In this document: positions 53,506 through 57,431 of the stretch, in pieces
How the letters are laid out: each line of letters opens with the position of its first letter
How positions within the stretch are numbered: the first letter of the stretch is position 1
Position numbers and translations under genes: made by a program
Notes under the pieces: generated by a model
What the model saw: only the letters and a program-made list of their open reading frames with translations
Databases searched by the model: none
Told to the model about the DNA's origin: nothing
DNA from: Actinobacteria bacterium IMCC26103
GTDB taxonomy: Bacteria > Actinomycetota > Actinomycetes > Nanopelagicales > Nanopelagicaceae
Length of the DNA: 64,000 bases
Reading direction: 5' to 3'
NCBI GenBank assembly: GCA_002284875.1
Contig: CP015604.1
Coordinates: 806,001-870,000, forward strand

Positions 53506-54744
53506 ATGACATCAAATGGGCAGAACCAGCAAAATTCGCCAGATCGCGTTGCGTTGGCAGTTGGGGATCGCTTCGTTACCACCATTGAGAAAGTCGCTCA
53601 TGGTGGCCACTTTATAGCGCGCCACCTTGGTGCGGTCATATTTGTCAGACACGCAATTCCTGGCGAAGAGGTAGAAATTGAAATTACCGGTACCGGAAGT
53701 TCATTTAACCGTGCTGATGTTGTAAATGTACTAACTGCATCTGCCGATCGTGTCAGTGCACCGTGCCAATTTGCACATCGCCTAGGTTGTGGCGGTTGCG
53801 ATTTTCAACATATTTCCCTGCCGCGCCAACGTGATTTAAAATCAGAGGTGATTACCGAACAATTTAGTCGAATTGCAAAACGTGAGCTAAAGATAGAAGT
53901 TGAAGAAGTTGGAGCGCCGCTGGGATATCGCACACGATTTAATGCGGTAACAACTAGTAATGGAGATCTAGGATTTAAGCAGGCCAGAAGTAACAAAGTT
54001 GTACCAGTAAGTGATTGCCGAATCTTGCAGCCAGAAATTAAATACCAAGAGCTAAGTTCTCGTAAATGGAAAGGTAATTTACGAGTTGAAGTCTCGCTAT
54101 CCTCAACCGGTGAGCGCACCATTGCAACCGGGTATGCCAGCGACGAGTCTGCTGTGCGCACTAGCGAAGGCCCAGATGTGGCTGAGTACTCAGTAAATGG
54201 ATTTAAGTTGGAAGTGGCACAGCGCTCCTTCTGGCAGAGCCATAAATTGGCGCCAACTGTTCTGACCGAAATAGTAAATGGCTATGCCAAGTTGCAAGCA
54301 GGCGATCAGGTCTTAGATCTATATGGTGGAGTCGGGCTCTTTACATCGCAATTCCTCGAAGCGATTGGTGAAAGCGGCCGCGTTGATCTCGTAGAAGGCA
54401 GTAAGAGCGCTACTACCGATGCCATGCGCAACTTTTCCACTTTTACAAATGTGAAGGTTCACACCGGTGATGTCGCAAAGTTGCTGCCCCGTTTTGCTAA
54501 GGCAGATGTAATTGTTTTAGATCCGCCGCGCGAAGGCGCCGGTAAAGAAGTGGTTGCGGCTATGGTTGCACTTAAGCCGCGCGCGATCATCTATGTCGCT
54601 TGCGATCCAGCTGCGCTAGCCCGTGACACCACTTACTTGAGCAGCGCCGGATATGAGATGGCAAAAGTTCGCGCCTTTGACCTTTTTCCCATGACTCACC
54701 ACATCGAAACGGTTGCCTTATTTACACAAGATAAGGTATCTTGA
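53506..54744 (+). CDS. TRAM-domain class I RNA (uracil-5-)methyltransferase
   Basis: This is a SAM-dependent RNA methyltransferase of the TrmA/RlmD (RumA) family, 412 residues. A TRAM domain (about 15-75) precedes iron-sulfur-type cysteines (CQFAHRLGCGGC near 86 and VSDCRI). The SAM motif LDLYGGVGLFTSQFL follows, then the catalytic motif DPPREGAG and the nucleophile Cys in YVACDPAALARD near residue 367. Whether the target is tRNA U54 or rRNA is not decided by sequence. Its stop lies inside a palindrome that precedes acnA. Confidence 0.93.
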   Translation: MTSNGQNQQNSPDRVALAVGDRFVTTIEKVAHGGHFIARHLGAVIFVRHAIPGEEVEIEITGTGSSFNRADVVNVLTASADRVSAPCQFAHRLGCGGCDFQHISLPRQRDLKSEVITEQFSRIAKRELKIEVEEVGAPLGYRTRFNAVTTSNGDLGFKQARSNKVVPVSDCRILQPEIKYQELSSRKWKGNLRVEVSLSSTGERTIATGYASDESAVRTSEGPDVAEYSVNGFKLEVAQRSFWQSHKLAPTVLTEIVNGYAKLQAGDQVLDLYGGVGLFTSQFLEAIGESGRVDLVEGSKSATTDAMRNFSTFTNVKVHTGDVAKLLPRFAKADVIVLDPPREGAGKEVVAAMVALKPRAIIYVACDPAALARDTTYLSSAGYEMAKVRAFDLFPMTHHIETVALFTQDKVS

Positions 54745-54754
54745 TATCAAGATA
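54737..54754. promoter_or_regulatory. Perfect 18-bp palindrome upstream of acnA
   Basis: TATCTTGATATCAAGATA is a perfect inverted repeat, 19 bases before the acnA start and overlapping the previous gene's stop. An extra CAAGATAA half-site (54727-54734) repeats the right arm (54748-54755). It looks like an operator for a dimeric MarR-type repressor. In Streptomyces the MarR protein TamR binds the acnA promoter; whether this is that site is inference. Confidence 0.65.
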
Positions 54755-54773
54755 AATTGAGTAAAGGATTAAA

Positions 54774-57431
54774 ATGAGCAAGAATTCATTGGGCGCCAAG
54801 AAGAATTTAAATGTAGCCGGTAAAGATTTTGAAATATTTGATATTTCAAAGATCGAGGGCGCCACTAACCTACCTTTCTCACTCAAGATCCTTTTAGAAA
54901 ATCTCTTGCGCACAGAAGATGGCGCTAACATCACCGCAGATCACATCAAGGCGCTTGCACAATGGGATCCATCAGTTGAACCCGATACGGAAATTCAATT
55001 CACTCCAGCACGAGTTGTAATGCAAGATTTCACCGGCGTTCCTTGCATCGTAGATCTAGCAACTATGCGCGAGGCGATCGTGGACCTGGGGGGAGATCCC
55101 GCAAAGGTAAATCCGCTAGCTCCTGCTGAACTTGTAATTGATCACTCTGTTATCGCCGATGTCTTTGGCACTAAAGATTCTTTTGAAAAAAACACAGATA
55201 TTGAATATGAGCGTAACCGTGAGCGCTATCGCTTCTTGCGCTGGGGACAAGGTGCTTTTGATGAATTCAAAGTTGTGCCACCTGGAACTGGAATCGTCCA
55301 CCAGGTAAATATTGAATTCTTAGCCCGTGTTGTAATGACACGCACCGTAAATGGAGTTCTGCGCGCTTATCCAGATACTGTCGTTGGTACTGATTCACAC
55401 ACCACGATGGTTAACGGTTTGGGCGTACTCGGCTGGGGCGTCGGTGGCATTGAGGCAGAAGCAGCTCTTCTGGGGCAGCCGGTATCAATGTTGATTCCGC
55501 GAGTAGTCGGATTCAAATTAAGTGGCGCGTTGCCGGTTGGCACAACAGCGACTGATATGGCGCTAACTATTACTGAGATGCTGCGCAAACATGGCGTGGT
55601 TGGTAAATTCGTAGAATTTTATGGCCCAGGTGTTGTATCGGTGCCAATGGCAAATCGCACGACGATCGGCAACATGAGCCCAGAGTATGGTTCGACTTGT
55701 GCAATCTTCCCAATCGATGAAGAGACTTTGCGTTATCTACGTTTAACCGGTCGCAGCGATGAGCAAGTTGCTCTCGTTGAGCAATATGCGAAAGCGCAAG
55801 GCATGTGGCATGACCCAGCGGTTAGTCCAAGATTCTCAGAACATATCGAATTAGATCTTGCGACAGTGGTTCCATCTATTTCTGGTCCGAAGCGTCCACA
55901 AGATCGCATCTCACTTAGCGCATCAAAGAGCTCTTTCGAGAAAATTCTGCCAACGTACTTCACTGAAAAAACTGGCCGAGAGGCTTATCCGGTAAAAGTT
56001 GGCGCAAAAGATACGACCATCAAAAATGGCGATGTAGTAATTGCTTCAATTACCTCTTGCACAAATACTTCAAATCCATCAGTAATGATTGGTGCTGCGC
56101 TTCTTGCAAAAAAGGCAGTTGAACGAGGGCTGACTTCAAAGCCATGGGTTAAGACCACTTTGGCGCCAGGCTCAAAGGTCGTCACCGATTACTACGATCG
56201 CGCAGATTTAACCAAATACATGGAAGCCCTTGGCTTTAACTTGGTTGGTTATGGCTGCGTAACTTGCATCGGTAACTCTGGTCCACTGCCAATTGAGATC
56301 AGTAAATCAGTTAACGAACATGATTTAGCGGTAACTGCAGTTCTCTCTGGAAACCGTAACTTTGAGGGACGTATTAGCCCAGATGTGAAGATGAACTACT
56401 TGGCATCTCCTCCGCTAGTTGTGGCCTACGCCTTGGCCGGAACCATGGACCATGATTTTGAAAAGGATTCATTGGGTAAAGATAAAGATGGCAGAGATGT
56501 ACTTTTGGCTGAAATCTGGCCAAGTGCAAAAGAGATTCAAGATGTTATTGATTCATCAATTTCTTCTGAGATGTTTAAGAAGGATTATGCAACTGTCTTC
56601 GATGGTGATCACCGCTGGAAATCTTTAGATACTCCAACCGGTAAGACCTTTGAATGGGATGCGCAATCAACTTACGTGCGCAAACCTCCTTATTTCGATG
56701 GCATGCCAGCAAATCCAACTCCAGTAACTGATATCTCCGGAGCGCGCGTCTTGGCGATTCTGGGAGATTCTGTGACAACAGATCACATCTCACCTGCCGG
56801 AAATATCAAGGTTGATTCACCTGCTGGTAAATATCTGGAAGCGCATGGAGTAGCGCGCGCTGATTTCAACTCTTATGGATCACGACGTGGCAATCATGAA
56901 GTCATGATCCGCGGAACTTTTGCAAATATTCGCTTGAAGAATATGTTGCTAGATGGAGTAGAAGGCGGCTTTACCCGCAACTTCCTCAGTGCGGGAGAGC
57001 AGAGCACAATTTACGATGCATCTATTGCCTATCAAAGCGCTGGTGTGCCGCTAGTAATTCTGGCTGGCAAGGAATATGGATCGGGTTCATCTCGCGACTG
57101 GGCGGCAAAGGGCACAGCGTTGCTCGGAGTCCGCGCCGTAATCGCTGAAAGTTTTGAACGTATCCATCGCTCAAATTTAATTGGTATGGGAGTTCTGCCA
57201 TTGCAATTTAAGGATGGCGACACTGCGCAATCACTTGGTCTAACCGGCTCTGAGGTATTTGCAATCACTGGAATCACTGAGCTAAATGGCGGTGGGATTC
57301 CTAGAGAGGTACAGGTAACTGCGGGGGATAAGTCATTTGCAGCCAAGGTGCGCATCGATACACCTGGTGAGGGTGATTATTATCGCCATGGGGGGATCAT
57401 GCAGTACGTGCTCCGCCAATTACTGCAGTAA
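54774..57431 (+). CDS. acnA: Aconitate hydratase A
   Basis: Aconitase converts citrate to isocitrate in the TCA cycle with a [4Fe-4S] cluster. The 885-residue product has the cluster cysteines in [14 protein letters not shown] near residue 432 and [15 protein letters not shown] near 498-501, [22 protein letters not shown], and the swivel-domain [12 protein letters not shown] near residue 767. AAAGGATT precedes the ATG. A palindromic operator candidate lies directly upstream. Confidence 0.98.

Follow-up and report, generated by a model that had tools for sequence, protein, structure and literature searches.

In Corynebacterium and Mycobacterium, aconitase is controlled locally by AcnR, a repressor of the TetR family that acts at acn and is encoded next to it. 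A different type of control has been described in Streptomyces, where malate dehydrogenase is said to be one of the targets of TamR of Streptomyces coelicolor, a protein of the MarR family. The S. coelicolor protein is reported to repress the genes of aconitase and of other enzymes of the citric-acid cycle and to be responsive to citrate and trans-aconitate, both of which weaken its binding to DNA (PMC5487221). The urate-responsive MarR proteins HucR and PecS are distant relatives; unlike them, TamR is reported to respond to citrate and not to urate (PMC6391409), and 2FBK, identified as HucR in PMC12838073, matches the TamR analyzed in this work at E 1.4e-8.

The locus described here resembles the S. 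coelicolor TamR regulon in that a MarR-family protein is paired with a predicted palindromic operator at the aconitase promoter; it differs from it in that no tam gene was found, no site is present at tamR, and the intergenic targets found in the genome are only two. It also differs from the AcnR systems, since the regulator belongs to the MarR family and its gene is distant from acnA. Indeed, the TetR-family gene adjacent to aconitase that characterizes AcnR was not found here, the genes flanking acnA being that of an rRNA methyltransferase (TIGR00479) and one that reads as 1-deoxyxylulose-5-phosphate synthase. We regard the system as a further example of the known TamR regulon, which has shrunk here to two TCA genes. 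TamR was not described for this freshwater lineage in the literature searched, whose coverage excludes most subscription journals.

The palindrome upstream of acnA

The window (i.e., the whole stretch of 64 kb that was analyzed) contains, around the start of acnA, the following features:

53506-54744, + strand: 23S rRNA (uracil-C5)-methyltransferase gene (RlmD/RumA-like), upstream of acnA (TIGR00479 over its cut-off)
54727-54734, + strand: CAAGATAA, proposed third half-site, probably incidental coding sequence (3/26 TamR-positive family genomes)
54737-54754, no strand: predicted TamR operator, 18-bp perfect palindrome TATCTTGATATCAAGATA (sequence and conservation)
54763-54768, + strand: AAAGGA, likely ribosome-binding site of acnA (read from the sequence)
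54774-57431, + strand: acnA, aconitate hydratase, predicted regulated gene (NF006757 and TIGR01341 over their cut-offs)

As the preliminary description had claimed, the 18-bp palindrome is perfect and overlaps the stop of the upstream gene: its left half coincides with the last codons (V-S-stop) of the RlmD-like gene, whose TGA stop lies at 54742-54744, and its 3' end falls 19 bases short of acnA, which starts with the ATG at 54774. No promoter consensus was found around it. TATCTTGATATCAAGATA is the sole perfect palindrome of at least 18 bp in the window, against 0.25 expected there from base composition; no further match to it with up to three mismatches was found elsewhere in the window.

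The same description had placed an extra half-site one helical turn upstream of the palindrome. The additional copy of CAAGATAA does exist at 54727-54734, and it is identical to the copy inside the palindrome at 54748-54755; however, the spacing is 21 bp, that is, about two turns. As a part of the operator this third half-site is not supported: of the 26 genomes of the family that have TamR, only three keep it (G000, G012, and G025). Because of this rarity and of its location within the final codons of the RlmD-like gene, it is probably incidental, and it was rejected.

A second site and the candidate regulator

The genome carrying the window (1.46 Mb, single contig) was searched with the pattern TATCTYGANNTCRAGATA, the reversed pattern serving as a control. 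At up to two mismatches, the whole genome yielded the acnA site (no mismatches), a second site at C1:580467-580484 (one mismatch), and nothing beyond these two. The second site and the gene of the candidate regulator are the following:

G000:C1:580467-580484: near-copy TATCTTGACGTCAAGAGA of the palindrome in the mdh promoter (one mismatch to TATCTYGANNTCRAGATA)
G000:C1:105120-105611: tamR, TamR-like MarR protein of 164 residues (PF12802 and PF01047 over their cut-offs)

The mdh site is intergenic and ends 11 bases ahead of a start codon; the gene that begins there is identified as malate dehydrogenase by TIGR01763 and NF004863 (both over cut-off). Operators at further TCA genes are a feature of the TamR regulon, and the one at mdh was found both in this genome and in 16 of the 17 TamR-positive genomes of the genus. 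Of the places where the preliminary description expected a genome search to retrieve the palindrome, another TCA gene (mdh) has it, but no marR-type gene does, the genome's own tamR being without a site. If up to three mismatches are allowed, 27 places per strand match in the genome and 27 in the reversed control; since the two counts are the same, these places look like chance, and a larger regulon in this genome was rejected. One of them, 1 kb from tamR and within a gene reading as rsmA, likewise looks like chance. A third place matching the inner core exactly (C1:1263623) falls within a gene, by its reading that of a photolyase.

The MarR_2 cut-off is exceeded by three proteins of the genome, and the other regulator matches are below cut-off. 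The TamR of this genome, in which five residues precede the stretch DEVDRLIAAWKRERPDLD, shares 57-63% identity with its counterparts in other families, the majority of them tam-linked, and paralogues reach at most 50%. All 12 TamRs that were aligned have the segment VTSGTMT unchanged, and it is probably part of the recognition helix. The tamR gene is flanked by a glmU-like gene and by one reading as ispE, a placement that is kept in the family members examined. The nearest titled TamR loci come mostly from freshwater actinobacterial assemblies, including Candidatus Planktophila limnetica and a Candidatus Nanopelagicaceae bacterium, which suggests that the window probably belongs to the acI/Nanopelagicaceae lineage. 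A TamR of freshwater or other actinobacterial type is also carried by three metagenome assemblies (L215, L216, and L228) whose title, Bifidobacterium breve, is probably wrong. The second MarR protein of the genome is a distant relative, missed by the TamR search at E 1e-8. A lysine/alanine-rich, highly repetitive short reading frame with AAAKKAAPKRRKK-like repeats (L052 869-1258), perhaps histone-like, adjoins the second MarR gene.

Distribution of the site and of TamR

The class-wide set comprised 128 genomes that are at least 95% complete; acnA was found in 124 of them, for all of which the upstream DNA was retrieved (108 new and 16 from before), and one was dropped (short contig), which left 123. 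A site was scored within 350 bp upstream of acnA. A genome was considered TamR-positive with a match at E 1.5e-42 or better (at least 50% identity), a line set after the identity gap had been seen; three genomes with 42%-identical paralogues only (G118, G124, and G144) were scored negative and, if scored positive, would be exceptions. The resulting co-distribution of operator and regulator is unusually clean: the site precedes acnA in 81/81 TamR-positive genomes and in 0/42 TamR-negative ones, whose best match has five mismatches, so that the conservation in relatives proposed as a check was found throughout the TamR-positive genomes of the class. The association has a Fisher p of 7e-34, which ignores relatedness, and the reversed pattern was found in 0/123 genomes. 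Within the window's own family the site is present in 8/8 TamR-positive and 0/4 TamR-negative genomes of this set, and both states occur, perfectly matched, inside families f1 (8 and 4), f28 (4 and 1), and f33 (1 and 2).

A second and partly overlapping set included 60 relatives, 37 of which, the window's genome among them, belong to one genus (acnA found in 32 of the 37); the acnA site was scored here at up to two mismatches within 300 bp. In the genus, it is present in 19/19 TamR-positive vs. 2/13 TamR-negative genomes, and the mdh site in 16/17 vs. 1/14; the corresponding figures in other families are 11/11 vs. 0/7 for acnA and 4/6 vs. 0/7 for mdh, and the reversed-pattern controls gave 0/51 and 0/44. 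For the two genomes having an acnA site and scored TamR-negative, the completeness is 60% (G009) and 69% (G031); their tamR may just not have been assembled. The TamR-positive genomes without an mdh site at the threshold are G014, where it has three mismatches, and G048 and G050 of other families.

The co-occurrence of site and TamR is inflated by relatedness, and independent pairs were therefore counted on trees built from the first 187 AcnA codons or residues. In the class tree (first 187 residues), 13 changes were counted for each trait and the two well-supported independent pairs are both concordant, and in a smaller tree of 50 rows three pairs agree, none opposes, and two show no difference; both tests are under-powered.

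The fate of the site in the absence of TamR differs between its two halves. In 9 of the 11 TamR-negative, site-less genomes of the genus, the left half TATCTTGA is kept and the non-coding right half is lost. The left half survives without TamR because TATCTTGA also spells the V-S-stop of the upstream gene; since the right half is lost where this coding half is kept, selection linked to TamR seems to maintain the right half. Three genomes without TamR, i.e., G004 (L109), G008 (L103), and G015 (L106), exhibit upstream of acnA what seems to be a decayed site, its halves being separated by one additional base.

The association of tamR with tam

Among 62 named TamR loci outside the family, tam is divergent from tamR in 49, and the site lies between the two genes in 42 of these 49 (up to two mismatches); many of the tamR-tam promoters carrying the same palindrome belong to Streptomyces. 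The representative P0001 of the methyltransferases neighboring tamR passes the trans-aconitate 2-methyltransferase equivalog NF010703. In tamR loci of other families the site was found upstream of tamR in 9/10 cases (up to three mismatches), and in G058 tamR and acnA are divergent, with two sites between them.

The arrangement with tamR divergent from tam and an operator in between, a feature of the TamR regulon, was not found in the window's genus. The site is upstream of tamR in 0/20 loci of the genus, own genome included, and in 0/18 related titled loci, some of which have short upstream DNA. Hence, the site expected at a marR-type gene is missing in this genus but is there in most other families. 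A search for tam homologues (one query, E 1e-10) retrieved none in the 37 genus genomes and none in 10 further family genomes; as judged from the lack of a tam homologue at this threshold, the genome seems to have kept TamR and to have lost the methyltransferase that TamR is named after. As tamR is without a site and no tam gene was found, the circuit of this lineage looks open-loop, apparently not autoregulated. In other families, four TamR-positive genomes in which tam was not found (G067, G092, G093, and G113) have the acnA site; since TamR-positive genomes without tam still possess it, the predicted control of aconitase, and not the link with tam, is the constant element.

Discussion

The guess of a TamR-like MarR repressor made in the preliminary description is well supported by the TamR encoded by this genome, the mdh site, the co-occurrence of site and regulator, and the palindromes of the tamR-tam promoters. 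On the basis of the sites, the genes, their conservation, and their co-distribution, we suggest, with a probability of roughly 0.93, that a TamR-type dimer binds the acnA palindrome and the mdh near-copy and represses both genes, and that citrate or trans-aconitate might relieve this repression. By homology with S. coelicolor TamR, the dimer encoded at G000:C1:105120-105611 would bind the acnA palindrome and the near-copy before mdh, covering the start regions of both genes, which would be repressed; the accumulation of citrate, or of trans-aconitate from damaged aconitase, would then weaken the binding of TamR, and aconitase and malate dehydrogenase would be derepressed. The response to citrate or aconitate, in particular, is attributed to this TamR by analogy with its S. 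coelicolor homologue.

It might be argued that the site is bound by some other dimeric regulator (TetR/AcnR-like, LysR, or IclR) whose distribution coincides with that of TamR, given that a perfect palindrome alone does not identify its binder and that the genome encodes three proteins above the MarR_2 cut-off, as well as further regulator matches below it. However, another regulator would have to account for the same palindrome in the tamR-tam promoter of 42 of the 49 named tam-linked loci and for a site that tracks TamR exactly through 123 genomes, with both states within f1, f28, and f33; moreover, the second MarR protein is only distantly related and absent from the TamR search at E 1e-8. 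We consider this explanation very unlikely. Even less credit can be given to the possibility that the palindrome separates the rlmD-like gene from acnA as a transcription terminator or an RNA hairpin: the 76-nt region is indeed more stable than its shuffled versions (z -3.0), but this stability comes mostly from the upstream CCTTAT/ATAAGG arms (54716-54736), the palindrome is A+T-rich without a T tract, and it recurs at the mdh and tamR promoters behind unrelated upstream genes. This reading was rejected, the terminator scan being empty and the folding arms not being conserved in relatives. Lastly, a chance feature, conserved via its coding left half in a short gap, is hardly credible: a window is expected to contain about 0.25 perfect 18-mers and TATCTTGA persists in TamR-negative relatives, but the non-coding right half is kept only with TamR (bar the two incomplete genomes), mdh has a near-copy as well, and the reversed-pattern controls gave 0/51, 0/44, and 0/123.

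Returning to the proposed control of acnA and mdh by TamR, we regard it as reasonably likely that the class-wide invariant core of the TamR system is aconitase rather than the methyltransferase, whole lineages being without tam and without autoregulation of tamR, and that in Nanopelagicaceae-like bacteria it has become an open-loop citrate sensor with two targets, the loss of tamR being accompanied by the decay of both operators.

The finding offers a candidate transcriptional switch of the TCA cycle that can be put to the test in freshwater bacteria of a streamlined lineage. It also indicates that the regulation of aconitase by TamR, known from Streptomyces, is widespread in the class and is kept when tam is lost. 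As the genus is split into members with and without TamR, their responses to citrate or to oxidative stress can be compared in a natural setting.
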